A DNA stretch of 64,000 bases from positions 558,001 through 622,000 of the forward strand of contig NZ_SCNG01000001.1 in NCBI RefSeq assembly GCF_005503555.1. The letters run 5' to 3'. Positions 31,494-57,578 of the stretch are shown here, piece by piece (position 1 is the first letter of the stretch; every line of letters begins with the position of its first letter). This DNA is from Rudaea sp. 3F27F6 (GTDB taxonomy: Bacteria > Pseudomonadota > Gammaproteobacteria > Xanthomonadales > Rhodanobacteraceae). Position numbers and translations under genes: made by a program. Below the pieces are notes generated by a model. It was not told the DNA's origin. It did no database searches and worked only from the letters and a program-made list of their open reading frames with translations.

Positions 31494-31516
31494 CCATTCC
31501 CGCAATAGCGGGAACC
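31494..31516. repeat. Short family C-like palindrome
   Basis: CATTCCCGCAATAGCGGGAA forms a 7-bp stem (TTCCCGC/GCGGGAA) and matches the core of the family C units at 36625 and 36734. It lies in the gap before the AcoR-like regulator gene. Confidence 0.6.
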
Positions 31517-36398: not shown

Positions 36399-36624
36399 CC
36401 TCAAGTCAGGACGAGGATTCTAGGGCGGCTTTGCGGCACGGGGAATGGTGCGCGAAATCTCGGCGTATCGCCGGGCGAATTGTCACGGAAGCGGGACAGA
36501 GGTTACTCCCGTCGTTGGTTGGTGTTCCAGCTTGCGCTGGAGGTGTTGCGTTCGGCCTGTTGTTCCCGCGAAGGCGGGACTCTCGGTAACTGGAGAACTG
36601 GGTCATGCAGAGTTAGTCTTTGCT

Positions 36625-36657
36625 CGTCATTCCCGCGTGCTCTCAGCGGGAATCCAG
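36625..36657 (+). repeat. Family C palindrome
   Basis: CGTCATTCCCGCG on the left and GCGGGAATCCAG on the right, with CTCGTCATTCCC preceded by TTTG. The same ends and orientation occur at 36734-36761, and the same ends bound the GIY-YIG gene at 55022-55421. Confidence 0.85.
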
Positions 36658-36733
36658 TGACTTTGCCTTTGCTTTTCCGTGGGGTCTAGGAGCAGAGCTT
36701 CCACTCGTCCAGCATCTCAGGCTTGCCTTTGCT

Positions 36734-36761
36734 CGTCATTCCCGCGAAAGCGGGAATCCAG
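36734..36761 (+). repeat. Family C palindrome, minimal form
   Basis: A 28-bp unit made of CGTCATTCCCGCG, AAA, GCGGGAATCCAG. The inner stem TTCCCGC/GCGGGAA is perfect. It lies 76 bp from the previous unit in the gene-free island. Confidence 0.85.
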
Positions 36762-36784
36762 CTCTTGCTTTGGTGCTTTTAAGA

Positions 36785-37033
36785 GCCAAGGCTTCCACTC
36801 GTCCTACGGACGAGCGGGTTACTTTCTTTGCTTGCACAAAGAAAGTAACCAAAGAAATGCACCCCGGGAGCCGCGCCGCCTGCGGCGGTTCGCGAGGTCA
36901 TGCCGGGGTTCGCTCGATGGACATCCGTGCCCATTCGCGAACTCGCGCGCATCCTGCGCGCGACCCTGTGGGCGAATCCGTCATGCCCTCGCCGCGGCTG
37001 ACGGGGACCCGAGATCAAAAGACAGATCAAAAG
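36785..37033 (-). repeat. Family B repeat (copy B3, minus orientation)
   Basis: Minus-strand copy of the sequence at 9117-9400. Its stem-loops are at 36817-36850 (GGTTACTTTCTTTG with CAAAGAAAGTAACC) and 36798-36814 (CTCGTCC, TAC, GGACGAG). The stems differ in sequence from the other copies but keep pairing. Confidence 0.85.
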
Positions 37034-37235
37034 CCGCCGTCTACGAAGGTCGTTCTTGCTTCGGCGCGCACGATGCGCGCTGCTCCGGCTTTTCCGGGTC
37101 CCCATTACATTGCGGCGGCAGCGGTCGATAAGGCCCGCAGGGTCGGCGCGATGGATCGCGCCGATTCCGCTATTGCACAGGGATGTGCAATTAGCGGAAC
37201 CCGGCCGCTGACGCGGACCCGGAGCGCAGGATGCG

Positions 37236-37345
37236 CGTAGGGCGCAATGTTCTGGGGCGGCGTTTCTTTGGTTACTTTCTTGTCGCTGTAGACAAGAAAG
37301 TGACCCGCTCGCCCAAAGGGCGAGTGGAAGCCTCTGCTCTTAAAC
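37236..37345 (+). repeat. Family B repeat (copy B4, plus orientation, hairpin end)
   Basis: Contains GGTTACTTTCTTGTC paired with GACAAGAAAGTGACC at 37270-37305 and CTCGCCC, AAA, GGGCGAG at 37308-37324. With B3 it forms a head-to-head pair. Upstream (about 37180-37200) another hairpin, TTGCACA, GGGA, TGTGCAA, replaces the ATGGATGTCCAT arm found in B1. Confidence 0.8.
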
Positions 37346-37365
37346 AAACCAAAGCAAAGCAAAAG

Positions 37366-37392
37366 CTGGATTCCGGCTTCCGCCGGAATGAC
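37366..37392. repeat. Family C variant palindrome
   Basis: CTGGATTCCGGCTTCCGCCGGAATGAC keeps the CTGGATTCC and GGAATGAC ends of family C but has a TTCCGGC/GCCGGAA core. It appears in inverse orientation relative to the units at 36625 and 36734. Confidence 0.75.
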
Positions 37393-37404
37393 AAGCCGAA
37401 GAAG

Positions 37405-37468
37405 CAAAGTCGCTGGATGACCAGCCCTACGGCTGTTGAGAGCCCCGCCAAGAGCATGCGGGGATGAC
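37405..37468 (+). repeat. Family F module, second copy
   Basis: Begins CAAAGTCGCTGGATGACC and ends with AGAGCATGCGGGGATGAC. It is almost identical over about 60 bp to 9415-9480, and in both places it lies downstream of a plus-orientation family B copy. Confidence 0.8.
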
Positions 37469-53811: not shown

Positions 53812-54972
53812 TCAGCGTCCGGCCAGTGCGTCGACGATATTCAGGCGCATCGCGCGCAGTGCCGGCAGCGCACCGATGACGACGCCGATCGCCAGTGCGA
53901 GTGCCAGCCCGAGCAGCCAGCTCTTGGGACCTACGGCCGCGCCCGTGATCATGCCGCCGCTCATCTTCGGCAGCGCCGCTCCGATCGCGGTCACCAGCCC
54001 GATGCCGACGATGCCACCGAGCAGCAACAGCAATATCGACTCCGCGAGCACCATGCCGAGCACGCTGCCGTTCGAGAAGCCGATGGTCTTGAGCACGGCG
54101 AGTTCGGAGGTGCGTTCGCGCACCGCCTGCATCATCGTGTTACCGGTCAGCAGAATCAGGGTGAAGAACACCGCGCCCATGATCGAAGTGACGATCAGGC
54201 CGATGTCTGCGAGCTGCTTGATCCAGTTGCGCGTCGCCGCCTGTTCGGTCTGGGTCTTGGTCTCGTGATCGGAATTGGCCGACAGCGCATCGATCGCCTT
54301 GGCCACGCGGTCGGCGTCGTTGACGTCCTTGACCCGGCTGATGTACCAGCCGACCTGACCGCGGTTGTACGGCGTGGTCTCGTCGAAATTCTTCCAGTGC
54401 AGCAGGATCATCTGACTCTGGAAGGCCTTGTCGTTCTCCGACTTCATCACCCCGCGCAGGTTGAAGCTCCAGTTCTTCGAGCCTTCCTTGTTCGGGAATA
54501 TCTGCGACTGCAGCGGAATCTTGTCGCCGATGTTCCAACCGTACTTTTTCACCAGCACCTCGCCGACGAGCACGCCGTTGAGATCTTCGTTGTAGGCTTT
54601 CATCTGCGCGGGATCGACACTGACCTCGGGATAGATGTCGAGATAGTTGTCGCTGACCGCGAAGGTGAATATCTGATTGTGCGGGTCTTGATAGGCGCCG
54701 CCGAACCAGTTCGCGTGAGCGACGTCCTTGACCCCGTCGATCGCGCCGATGCGCGCGAGCAGGGATTGCGGCAGCGGCTGGATGAAGGACAACTTCGCCC
54801 CGGTCTGCAAACGCTCGGCGCCGTTCGCCGACTGCCCCGCTTCCGCGAACGATACGCGCACCGCGTCGAGCAGGCCGAACAACAGAAACGCCGCGATGAT
54901 CGACACCAGGGTCAGGATCGTGCGCGTCTTGCGGCGGAACAGCGCCGCCCAGATGAGATGTAGATATTTCAT
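53812..54972 (-). CDS. ABC transporter permease (MacB/FtsX type), first permease
   Basis: A 386-residue permease starting MKYLHLIWAALFRRKTRTIL (first helix), followed by a periplasmic domain (about residues 40-265) and three C-terminal helices. It has the FtsX-type RERTSELAVLKTIGFSNGSV near 290 and ends with the expected PALRAMRLNIVDAL. The start at 54972 is chosen over the upstream ATG because the first helix begins there. It is separated from its ATPase gene by the 400-bp GIY-YIG unit, though the operon order adaptor-ATPase-permease-permease is otherwise intact. Confidence 0.9.
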   Translation of the reverse strand: MKYLHLIWAALFRRKTRTILTLVSIIAAFLLFGLLDAVRVSFAEAGQSANGAERLQTGAKLSFIQPLPQSLLARIGAIDGVKDVAHANWFGGAYQDPHNQIFTFAVSDNYLDIYPEVSVDPAQMKAYNEDLNGVLVGEVLVKKYGWNIGDKIPLQSQIFPNKEGSKNWSFNLRGVMKSENDKAFQSQMILLHWKNFDETTPYNRGQVGWYISRVKDVNDADRVAKAIDALSANSDHETKTQTEQAATRNWIKQLADIGLIVTSIMGAVFFTLILLTGNTMMQAVRERTSELAVLKTIGFSNGSVLGMVLAESILLLLLGGIVGIGLVTAIGAALPKMSGGMITGAAVGPKSWLLGLALALAIGVVIGALPALRAMRLNIVDALAGR

Positions 54973-55021
54973 GACAGCTTCTCGATACGTTGAAGTCCAG
55001 TCGGACATGGGACGGCAAGCT

Positions 55022-55054
55022 CGTCATTCCCGCACGCTTCTGGCGGGAATCCAG
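55022..55054 (+). repeat. Left inverted repeat of the GIY-YIG unit (family C)
   Basis: A 33-bp unit with ends CGTCATTCCCGC and GGCGGGAATCCAG. Its reverse complement matches 55389-55421 at 32 of 33 positions. It lies 10 bp from the GIY-YIG stop codon. Confidence 0.95.
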
Positions 55055-55064
55055 CGCCTTCTCT

Positions 55065-55367
55065 TTACTCTCCGGCCACGATTTCCGAATACAAATCACG
55101 CCAATACGGATTGCTCTTCTCGATCAAGCGGATTTTCCAATTCCGCTCCCACTTCTTGATTTGCTTCTCGCGCAAAATTGCCTCTTTCATGCCGACGTGA
55201 AGCTCGAAGTAAACGAGCAGGTGCGCCTGATATTCCTTGCTGAATCCTGTGATCACATCATTTCGATGTTGCCAAACTCGCTGCACCAGATCGCTGGTGA
55301 CGCCGACATACAAAGTGCCATTGCGCCGGCTCGCGAGGAGGTAGACAGCAGGCTGCTTTTCCTTCAT
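55065..55367 (-). CDS. GIY-YIG family nuclease, small single-domain protein
   Basis: A 100-residue protein of the YhbQ/UvrC-type GIY-YIG superfamily. Motifs: VYLLASRRNGTLYVGVTSDL near residues 8-27, where VYLL and YVGV stand for GIY and YIG; the catalytic-type Arg in LVQRVWQHRNDV near 27-38; and the family tail AILREKQIKKWERNWKIRLI near 63-82 followed by NPYWRDLY. GIY-YIG enzymes cut DNA with one metal ion. No Shine-Dalgarno sequence is evident. Its location inside inverted repeats, breaking an ABC operon, suggests it is part of a mobile unit and not of the transporter. Confidence 0.93.
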   Translation of the reverse strand: MKEKQPAVYLLASRRNGTLYVGVTSDLVQRVWQHRNDVITGFSKEYQAHLLVYFELHVGMKEAILREKQIKKWERNWKIRLIEKSNPYWRDLYSEIVAGE

Positions 55368-55388
55368 CGCAAAGCAAAACCAAAGTCA

Positions 55389-55421
55389 CTGGATTCCCGC
55401 CAGAAGCGCGCGGGAATGACG
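55389..55421 (-). repeat. Right inverted repeat of the GIY-YIG unit (family C)
   Basis: Mirror copy of 55022-55054 with one mismatch. Both ends show the same CTGGATTCCCGCC outer/inner order, and each is itself a hairpin (TTCCCGCC with GCGGGAA). It lies 8 bp from the ATPase stop codon. Confidence 0.95.
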
Positions 55422-55429
55422 ATCAAAAG

Positions 55430-56119
55430 CTAAGCGTGCTCGGCCTGCTCGACCAGGGTGCCCTTGTCGAGGTGCAGGGTATGGCTCGCGTACTCGGCTG
55501 CCTTCGGGTCATGGGTGACCATGACGATGGTCTTGCCGTGCTGGCGGTTGAGTGTCTGCAGCAAGCCGAGCACGTCCTCGGCGGACTGGCGGTCGAGGTC
55601 GCCGGTCGGTTCGTCGCAGACCAGCAAGGTCGGATCGGACACGATCGCGCGTGCGATCGCGACGCGCTGCTGCTGACCGCCGGACAGCTCGGTCGGCTTG
55701 TGCCCCGCGCGCTCGGCGAGGCCGACGAGCTGCAGCGCGATCGCCGCATTCTTCTTGCGCTGCGCCGCGCCGAGCTTGGTCAGCAGCAACGGCAGTTCGA
55801 CGTTCTTCTGCGCCGACAGCATCGGCAGCAGGTTGTAGAACTGGAAGATGAAGCCAACGTTGGATGCGCGCCACTTCGCCAACGCGCCCTGGTTGAGATT
55901 GTCGATGCGCTGGCTGCCGACGCTGATCTGACCCTGGGTCGGCGAGTCGAGCCCGCCGATCAGATTCAGCAGGGTCGTCTTGCCCGAGCCGGATGGCCCC
56001 ATCAGTGCAAGGAAATCGCCCTGCGCGATGTCCAGATCGATGTGATGCAGCACTTCGACTTTCTGCTTGCCGCGTTCGTAGGTCTTGCTGACATTGCGGA
56101 TTTCGACCAGCGTGCTCAT
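55430..56119 (-). CDS. ABC transporter ATPase (MacB/LolD type)
   Basis: A 229-residue ATP-binding subunit that powers the two permeases downstream. It has Walker [21 protein letters not shown] near residue 35-54, the Q-loop region [17 protein letters not shown] near 85, signature [14 protein letters not shown] near 142, and Walker [19 protein letters not shown] near 163. AGGAGCA precedes the start. The order adaptor, ATPase, permease, permease is that of MacAB-like tripartite or lipoprotein-type exporters. Confidence 0.95.
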
Positions 56120-56146
56120 GCATTGCTCCTGTGCTTTTTGTCTTTA

Positions 56147-56327
56147 CCTTCTCCCGCCGGGAGACAGGTGGCGCGAAGCGCCGGATGAGGGAAAAGCCTC
56201 TGCTCTCGCAACTTCGTTACAAACTGCGGCGCTCTTCCCCAGCGGTTTTTCAGGCACCTTCTCCAAGAAGAAGGGAAGAACGCTCTTTCGACGTTTCAGC
56301 GATGCCGGTTTCGACATCCGCAGACGA
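56147..56327. repeat. Adaptor-ATPase spacer with family E element
   Basis: This 208-bp spacer inside the ABC operon contains CCTTCTCCCGCCGGGAGACA (56148-56167) followed by GCGCGAAGCGCCGGATGAGGG, the same element seen between rpsB and tsf. A looser CCTTCTCCAAGAAGAAGG palindrome near 56259-56276 lies closer to the adaptor gene. No gene is present. Confidence 0.65.
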
Positions 56328-57578
56328 TTATTTCGCCGCTTTGATTTCCACTTTCGCGCCGTCGGCCATGTCCGCGGGCGGCTGCTTGACCACGCGTGTG
56401 CCGGCGGCGATGCCTTCGACGAGGCGCAGGTCGTTGTAAGTCTGTCCCGGCGCCACCGGCTTGGCGCGCACGCGGTCGGCGTCGAGCGCGTACACCGTGT
56501 CCTTGCCCTCGCGCTTGACGATGGCCGAGCCCGGCACCAGCACGCCCTTCGGCGGCGGCGCATTCGCAGTCTTCGGCGCGTCTTCGAAGAACGACACGCG
56601 CGCGCCCATGTCGGGCAGCACGCGCGGGTCCTTCGCGTCGATGCCGATGCGCACTTTCACCGTGGCCTTGCCGCGGTCGGCGGTCGGGATGATCGCGACC
56701 ACATGCGACGGAATCTTCCAGTCCGGATAGGCGTCGAGCACGGTCTGCGCCGGCTGCTTCGGCACGACGCGGGAAATGTACGACTCGTTGACGTCGACTT
56801 CGATCTCAAGCGATTCCATGTCGACGATCGTGCCGACGCCCGTGCGCGTGAAGCCGCCGCCGGCCGACAGCGGCGAGACGATTTCGCCGACCTGCGCGGC
56901 CTTGGCGGTGACCATGCCGGTGAACGGCGCGCGCACCGTGCAGTAATCGAGCTGGACCTGCGCGGCCTGCACGTTGGCCTGCGAAACCTCGACCTGGCGA
57001 CGCTGCGCGGTGACCGCGGCGAACTGCGTGTCGACCTGGGTGCGCGCGAGTTCGAGCGACTGGGTCGAGGCGAGCTTGCGCGCAACGAGATCTTCCGCGC
57101 GCTTCAAATCGCGCTGGTTCTGCCCGAGCTGCGCCTGATACTGGGTCAGTTGCGCCTGCGCGGCGCGCAAACCGGCCTGCGCTTGATCGAGCCCGGCGCG
57201 CCATGCGGTGCTTTCCAGGCGCGCGAGCACCTGGCCTTTCTCGACGCGGTCGCCCTCCTCGATCAGCACCTCGGTCAAGGTGCCGGTGATCTGCGCCGAC
57301 ACGGTCGCCGAGCGGCGCGCGGTCACGTAGCCGGTCGCCTGCAGCACCGAGGTATCGGCACCGCCCGCGCTCGGCGCGACCGCCGTCGCGGCCTCGACCT
57401 CGAACGACTTGGCCCCGTTGAAGAAGAAATACCAGCCTGCGCCGACGGCAGCGATCAGCGCCGCGACGGCGACCGCGGCGATCCACGACCACGGCGAACG
57501 GCCGCCGACATGATCATCGCGATGCTCCTTGCCGATGCGCAATTCATTGAGCAGGTCCGATTTGTCCATGATCCCCAT
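56328..57578 (-). CDS. Periplasmic adaptor (membrane fusion protein) of an ABC exporter
   Basis: A 416-residue HlyD/MacA-like protein. It has a cytoplasmic N-terminus, one anchor helix near residues 30-55 (WIAAVAVAALIAAVGAGWYF), lipoyl-like half motifs (TLTEVLIEEGDRVEKGQVLA near 100 and MVTAKAAQVGEIVSPLSAGG near 215), a Gln/Ala-rich coiled-coil hairpin (about 125-205), and a beta-barrel C-terminal part. It would bridge the permeases to the envelope. ATG 57578 has AAGG 8 bp upstream; ATG 57569 is an alternative. It heads the operon and is divergent from the DUF3052 gene. Confidence 0.92.
   Translation of the reverse strand: MGIMDKSDLLNELRIGKEHRDDHVGGRSPWSWIAAVAVAALIAAVGAGWYFFFNGAKSFEVEAATAVAPSAGGADTSVLQATGYVTARRSATVSAQITGTLTEVLIEEGDRVEKGQVLARLESTAWRAGLDQAQAGLRAAQAQLTQYQAQLGQNQRDLKRAEDLVARKLASTQSLELARTQVDTQFAAVTAQRRQVEVSQANVQAAQVQLDYCTVRAPFTGMVTAKAAQVGEIVSPLSAGGGFTRTGVGTIVDMESLEIEVDVNESYISRVVPKQPAQTVLDAYPDWKIPSHVVAIIPTADRGKATVKVRIGIDAKDPRVLPDMGARVSFFEDAPKTANAPPPKGVLVPGSAIVKREGKDTVYALDADRVRAKPVAPGQTYNDLRLVEGIAAGTRVVKQPPADMADGAKVEIKAAK

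Follow-up and report, generated by a model that had tools for sequence, protein, structure and literature searches.

Members of the GIY-YIG superfamily share conserved Tyr, Gly, Arg, His, Glu and Asn positions with catalytic roles. Slx1 is a branched-DNA nuclease, and the free-standing GIY-YIG homing endonucleases are encoded by small intergenic genes that could spread through cleavage and subsequent repair. Enzymes of the GIY-YIG type hydrolyse DNA; we know of no strand transfer by them.

The CGTC REPs are palindromes present in many copies, with a CGTC tag, a stem of 8-9 bp starting with AT, a loop of 4-5 bp (other lengths in some species) and a CCA tail; their superfamily comprises four families, occurs in several phyla and includes dRS3 of Neisseria and RPE-4 and RPE-6 of Rickettsia conorii (Di Nocera 2013, PMC3733652, in the parts drawn on here). 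In those same parts, the 2013 census states that they 'apparently lack a dedicated transposase' and its authors found no tyrosine transposase gene with CGTC REPs at its flanks (PMC3733652). The GTAG REPs of REPtrons are served by RAYT (TnpA-REP, an HUH tyrosine transposase), which has been shown to recognise the single-stranded hairpin and to cleave at an adjacent CT dinucleotide (PMC8266576). Among the matches listed from the open-access literature, with subscription papers and preprints outside this scope, no earlier report links GIY-YIG proteins with REP-type palindromes; nothing in that literature brings GIY-YIG together with dRS3, and neither 'GIY' nor 'nuclease' occurs in the main text of the RepRanger paper (2025).

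The 400-bp unit and its relatives in the Rudaea genome

In the window (the whole 64,000-nucleotide stretch analysed, from Rudaea sp. 3F27F6), a single GIY-YIG gene of 100 codons lies between two 33-bp palindromes of opposite orientation, which differ by one mismatch and leave spacers of 10 and 21 bp around the ORF. The unit totals 400 bp and parts the ATPase gene of an ABC transporter from its permease gene (Table 1), the true start of the latter probably being a later ATG at 54972. On each of these points, the inverted ends, the dimensions of the unit and its place in the operon, the sequence-only reading was confirmed.

Table 1. Features of the unit and its surroundings, gene-free palindromes of the window, and broken gene copies elsewhere in the Rudaea genome
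Feature	Position	Strand	Remarks
ABC transporter permease gene, downstream	53812..55008	-	ORF; named by inspection
CGTC-tagged REP, permease-side end	55022..55054	+	CGTC tag outward, 8-bp stem ATTCCCGC, 9-nt loop, CCAG tail
GIY-YIG nuclease gene	55065..55367	-	100 aa; Y9, Y20, G22, R30, H34, E67, N86 conserved
CGTC-tagged REP, ATPase-side end	55389..55421	-	32/33 identical to permease-side end, inverted; tag outward
ABC transporter ATPase gene, upstream	55430..56119	-	ORF; named by inspection
Gene-free CGTC REP	36625..36657	+	same core and loop length as window ends; TTTGCT just before
Gene-free CGTC REP	36734..36761	+	same core as window ends; 4-nt loop
Gene-free REP	37366..37393	-	CCGGC core, TGTC tag
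Broken copy or fragment	C14		flanking core CCAGC
Broken copy or fragment	C10:623698		flanking core CCAGC
Broken copy or fragment	C10:445190		flanking core CCGGC

Both ends read CGTC-ATTCCCGC[A/G]CGCTTCTGGCGGGAAT-CCAG, and repeat finding extends the arms of the inverted pair to 40 nt at 93% (55021-55060 / 55383-55422). Each end by itself can form a hairpin of an 8-bp stem and a 9-nt loop, the single-stranded folding of the four 48-nt end strands giving z values of -1.8 to -2.2. An inverted pair of this strength was met at only 1 of 424 and 0 of 601 shifted control positions, which rules out chance pairing of the ends. The unpaired CGTC tag, the stem and the CCAG tail are those of the CGTC REPs; the loop is longer than their 4-5 bp. 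Within the Rudaea genome, 34 of 39 units have the long loop and 4 the short one, in a sample drawn by likeness to the long form. A general REP pattern, restricted to ATTCCNGC stems, gave 62 + 63 matches in this genome (5.7 Mb, 16 contigs), and the same pattern read backward gave 0.

The gene has a GC content of 50.8%, against 64.5% for the window. Its product matches Pfam GIY-YIG (PF01541, E = 1.8e-12), the only domain found, and has neither a transposase domain nor the HUH motif and catalytic tyrosine of a RAYT. The predicted fold is likewise a single GIY-YIG domain (pLDDT 93.9). Its closest match is UPF0213, followed by Slx1 and UvrC, the best of these weak matches having an E of 3e-3 and none passing 0.001. 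An Rfam search of 54500-56500 (E <= 1) gave no known RNA family. Membership of a known defence family was also considered and rejected, as PADLOC yielded one partial match only (E 0.0041). Upstream of the ATPase gene, the intergenic stretch 56140-56290 holds a CTTCTCCCGCCGGGAG-type palindromic sequence, and a similar CCTTCTCCCGATGGGAG is found at the ATPase-permease junction of a congener (G122, L157); these look like a second repeat family.

Gene-free relatives of the ends had been listed at four further places in the window. Three of them were recovered (Table 1), and near 31494 there is a degenerate copy. The stretch 36600-37410 combines two CCCGC palindromes with an inverted CCGGC palindrome and is possibly a composite element or the relic of one. 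A search of the genome with the window protein found four other places. Three of these hold a broken copy or a fragment, set between CGTC-type palindromes whose core is not the CCCGC of the intact window gene: one decayed copy and one fragment with CCAGC, and one fragment with CCGGC. The fourth is an intact gene (34% identity) with no palindromes beside it.

The same CGTC ends also bound gene-free composite elements of about 640-730 bp in the window's genome (G000; contigs C8, C9 and C10, L026-L037). The 12 fetched were alike in all 66 pairs (median identity 86%) and none had a GIY-YIG match inside; thus, they are not simple deletion derivatives of the gene unit. Among 39 distinct CCCGC-core units of this genome, a sample not wholly independent because one composite family contributes many of them as its ends, the hexamer preceding CGTC is TTTGCT (at most one mismatch) in 31, a TTTGCT-like hexamer recurs at tail positions 9-14 in 30, and 26 have it on both sides, against a background of 0.33% per position. 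These hexamers may be a target, or simply a component of the repeat.

Palindromes at homologous genes

The GIY-YIG gene is present in 81 of 147 genomes of the bacterial family, in 18 of 26 genera (E <= 1e-10), and Y9, Y20, G22, R30, H34, E67 and N86 are each kept in 98-99 of 99 full-length proteins. We scored the flanks of 109 family loci (L021, L022, L046-L152) without reference to any motif, by the best inverted match of the 150 bp left of the gene to the 150 bp right of it, with the same measure shifted by 500-600 bp and shuffled flanks as controls. A score of at least 16 was reached at 79 of the 109 loci, as compared with 1 of 424 shifted and 0 of 327 shuffled controls, and a strong pair was wanting at 30. 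Flanks of unlike loci also reached this score with each other (217 of 648 cross-locus pairs) because all flanks belong to one repeat superfamily, which makes the shifted control the fair one. A tag-and-stem finder, which lets in a few doubtful stems (e.g. L056, L067), placed palindromes on both sides at 65 of the 109 loci and on neither side at 10, the nearest tags pointing outward at 37 and inward at 17 and the rest being one-sided or in one direction; a strict pattern found both sides at 44. The expectation that the gene would always be bounded by palindromes in relatives is therefore borne out for the majority of loci, not for all.

These 109 loci are not independent. By flank similarity they fall into merely 28 site clusters (the largest having 30, 20, 13 and 10 members), and the gene thus usually stays put; 20 of the clusters contain at least one member tagged on both sides. 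A sister GIY-YIG group of the same bacterial family gave a flank score of at least 14 at 0 of 30 loci (those read of 42 matches listed, in 39 of 59 genomes), and a general attraction of GIY-YIG genes to REPs is thereby ruled out.

Beyond the family, the gene was detected in 105 of 398 genomes sampled over the phylum, and at least 571 relatives came from a scan of species genomes; among the best 80 are records of Planctomycetes, Nitrospira, Anaerolineae, Elusimicrobia and Bipolaricaulota, many of them metagenome bins. The wider set of 109 loci consists of these best 80 of at least 571 and of one locus each from 29 of the 105 positive genomes, loci common to both lists or already in the family set being retained (L228 and L259 have the same flanks). 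Here 64 loci scored at least 16 (46/80 + 18/29), against 0 of 601 shifted controls, and 45 were without a strong pair. The cores vary (ATACCGAC, ATGCCGGA, ACCCTGAA, ATCCCGAC, ATTGCGAG and others), while GTC before and CCA after the stem are mostly kept. A plasmid collection gave 33 matching records, and 12 of the hits were read. In Azospirillum lipoferum, the gene and paired palindromes lie between sufB and sufC; in two records of Neisseria gonorrhoeae, which are filed as plasmids in spite of their chromosomal size, the gene has CGTC-1-like repeats on both sides with tags inward. Relatives with the gene and no palindromes, which the sequence-only reading had counted against itself, do occur as a minority: among the plasmid-collection loci read, none were found at the gene in Rhizobium K1/93, R. 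tumorigenes and Photobacterium sp. GJ3. On plasmid p1 of Planktothrix agardhii, a GIY-YIG relative (L324) stands between an MmeI-type restriction gene and the DISARM gene drmA, with GTCATTCTGAG-type repeats nearby. As for phage cargo, a search of 50,697 phage records (E <= 1e-5) gave no match, and this origin was rejected.

The palindrome type follows the gene. In seven genomes with several genes, the paralogues are 41-69% identical and their flanking palindromes mostly differ; 21 of the 25 loci score at least 16 and four have no strong pair (one locus, L283, is the same gene as L272 of the wider set). One genome (G545) has five paralogues of 41-55% identity with four stem types. The exceptions are two of its loci (L280, L283) with a TTCCTGC stem in common and a different tag and tail, two loci of G450 (L287, L288) with one palindrome in common, and two of G024 (L048, L075) with CCCGC in common. 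Of the family loci, 60 combine a full-length ORF with tagged palindromes to the left and right of it; a stem type is common to the two sides in 47 of these and in 13 there is none, at most three palindromes per side being compared. On the gene tree, stem type (46 of the 47 loci) requires 12 changes against 29.1 when shuffled, with 0 of 200 shuffles as low, a clustering partly raised by near copies.

In three of 30 genomes counted, nearly all exact palindrome copies sit at the gene: 2 of 3 in G214, 2 of 2 for one core in G545, and 2 of 2, both in one orientation, in G380. TTCCTGC palindromes number 10 in the Rudaea genome and 7 in G200, with no gene of that core among the copies read in either. 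As judged from these sequence comparisons, the pairing of the nuclease family with the palindrome is specific, and the palindrome is mostly a different one for each paralogue.

Insertion sites, repeat number and competing explanations

The sequence-only reading had looked to close relatives for an empty ATPase-permease junction, and such junctions were seen. The junction was readable in 13 of 15 congeners: ATPase stop and permease start are 12 nt apart in six (with ATPases 96-97% identical in three of these), five have gene-free spacers of about 50-160 nt, one (G142) has gene-free CGTC-type palindromes, and in one (G132) the junction is occupied. It is occupied as well in two genomes of another genus (G118 and G024), the ATPase-side palindrome being the only one found in G118. 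G132, G118 and G024 carry, in this same operon, the homologues with the three highest scores (81, 73 and 69% identity). The insert is therefore real, and it is old or was transferred with the operon. The gene element is intergenic and has empty congeners elsewhere too: at the L066 site of G046, the 140 nt that follow the shared upstream gene are free of the insert in all 13 of the congeners read, the right flank not being conserved and G142 carrying gene-free palindromes there. Neither place yielded an exact empty site with a target duplication, and at the ATPase-permease junction none is callable because the congener spacers are too diverged. Two intergenic spaces occupied by the gene element in a different species of the genus contain gene-free palindromes of another core in G142 (L164, L307), which suggests favoured insertion spaces. 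Two Sinorhizobium records both have the gene, with different repeat arrays.

Gene presence goes with repeat number. The median REP count is 25 in the 81 family genomes that carry the gene, 5 of which have no REP of the searched type, and 0.5 in the 66 where no gene was detected, 33 of which have no REP (one-sided p = 2.5e-12 over the 147 genomes), and 0 of 20,000 within-genus permutations in 13 genera did as well. There are exceptions, 13 of the 66 having at least 10 REPs despite no detected gene (e.g. 190 in G134).

We consider, with a probability of about 0.7, that the GIY-YIG nuclease is the cognate partner of the CGTC-tagged REP family in a REPtron-like arrangement, and is tied to the spread or upkeep of these repeats. 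One might argue instead that CGTC REPs spread otherwise and act as recombination sites, the gene being a small cassette that enters between them. Their presence in many intergenic spaces, and the gene-free REPs of G142 at the ATPase-permease junction and at the L066 site, would fit such a landing pad. It is nevertheless improbable, as it does not account for the sister group (0/30), for palindromes that are mostly distinct among paralogues and alike at the two ends, for the exact copies confined almost wholly to the gene in G214, G545 and G380, or for gene presence predicting REP number within genera. A role of RAYT, or of another HUH transposase, spreading CGTC REPs in trans as is thought for GTAG REPs, was left open by Di Nocera et al. 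in the part of their paper concerned (PMC3733652), and Y1_Tnp genes do occur in 97 of the 147 family genomes, that of Rudaea included. Their presence is unrelated to CGTC REP number (p = 0.68, Y1_Tnp being a proxy for RAYT that covers IS200/IS605 transposases too), and the 25 genomes with the GIY-YIG gene and no Y1_Tnp have a median of 39 REPs, none being at zero. Together with the lack of a tyrosine transposase gene between CGTC REPs in the part of the 2013 survey cited above, this disfavours RAYT as the mover, and we hold such a role to be very improbable indeed. The Rudaea genome (G000) has one Y1_Tnp gene, at C13:324627-324956.

A third rival is a host function. A domesticated structure-specific nuclease could trim or resolve REP cruciforms or hairpins, for genome upkeep or for control of its own mRNA, with no spread at all; the nearest folds after UPF0213 are Slx1 and UvrC, the gene is mostly single copy at conserved loci, and the palindromes flank the transcribed region. 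Yet the patchy occurrence (81/147 and 105/398 genomes), the decayed copies with palindromes of their own and the palindromes differing between paralogues fit selfish pairs better, and we regard a pure host function as unlikely.

The view of the nuclease as cognate partner of the repeats retains one half of the earlier reading, that of a nuclease-palindrome unit: the specific pairing and the likeness to REP-RAYT systems stood. The other half, in which the gene moves together with its ends, was not supported as worded, given only 28 site clusters for 109 loci, inward tags at 17 and no palindrome on either side at 10. The 400-bp unit cannot clearly be called a transposon; the gene has few copies and is often at a kept locus, and it is mainly the palindrome that spreads. 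One might speculate that the CGTC hairpin, either as a single strand or as an extruded cruciform, is recognised by the GIY-YIG protein, which then cuts beside the tag, our guess being between TTTGCT and CGTC since the palindromes of the Rudaea genome are bracketed by TTTGCT-like hexamers. Host replication or repair would then copy the palindrome into new intergenic sites, the copying being ascribed to the host because GIY-YIG enzymes are hydrolytic, and the gene would rarely move, kept as a nearly domesticated partner. This detailed cut-and-repair route is tentative and rather doubtful.

Comparison with known systems

The window gene and its homologues are strong candidates for the enzyme, missing so far, by which the CGTC REPs are spread or maintained. 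A broader proposition, to which we give about even odds, is that CGTC REPs and these GIY-YIG genes together constitute a separate class of prokaryotic mobile or selfish DNA, in which a hydrolytic nuclease recognises the hairpin and host replication or repair copies it around the genome, in several phyla, in parallel to but independently of the RAYT-REP systems, the nuclease being the enzyme that the entire CGTC superfamily, with dRS3, has so far lacked. Were cleavage and spread true, this would be a class of its own; it would point to at least two separate origins of hairpin-repeat systems, on nuclease folds unrelated to each other, and would assign a function to genes annotated merely as 'GIY-YIG nuclease family protein'. 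CGTC palindromes of several phyla were without an enzyme in the 2013 census; given a specific nuclease partner, their origin can be put to a direct test with a single small protein plus a short oligonucleotide.

Like the free-standing homing endonucleases, the window gene is small, intergenic and of the GIY-YIG type; unlike them, it is bounded by dispersed palindromes, has no match among the 50,697 phage records and encodes a one-domain protein (100 aa) that lacks a DNA-binding extension. The UPF0213/YhbQ-type small GIY-YIG proteins and Slx1 have the fold and the catalytic residues in common with it, but a sister GIY-YIG group in the same bacteria is without flanking palindromes (0/30). The window ends resemble the CGTC REPs, as the cited parts of the 2013 census describe them, in their tag, 8-bp stem starting with AT, CCA tail and many copies, and differ in having a loop of 9 nt instead of 4-5, and in that no dedicated transposase is described there. 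The likeness to REPtrons lies in a small nuclease gene between inverted tagged hairpins, in matching hairpins dispersed in the genome and in an enzyme gene of low copy number, and at the majority of loci, though not at all, the gene is flanked by its own dispersed palindromes. The nuclease, however, is GIY-YIG and not HUH, the tag is CGTC and not GTAG, covalent strand transfer is not expected of a GIY-YIG enzyme, and Y1_Tnp does not track the CGTC REPs. The architecture is thus a known one, that of the REPtron, whereas the enzyme and the repeat superfamily are not those of REPtrons.
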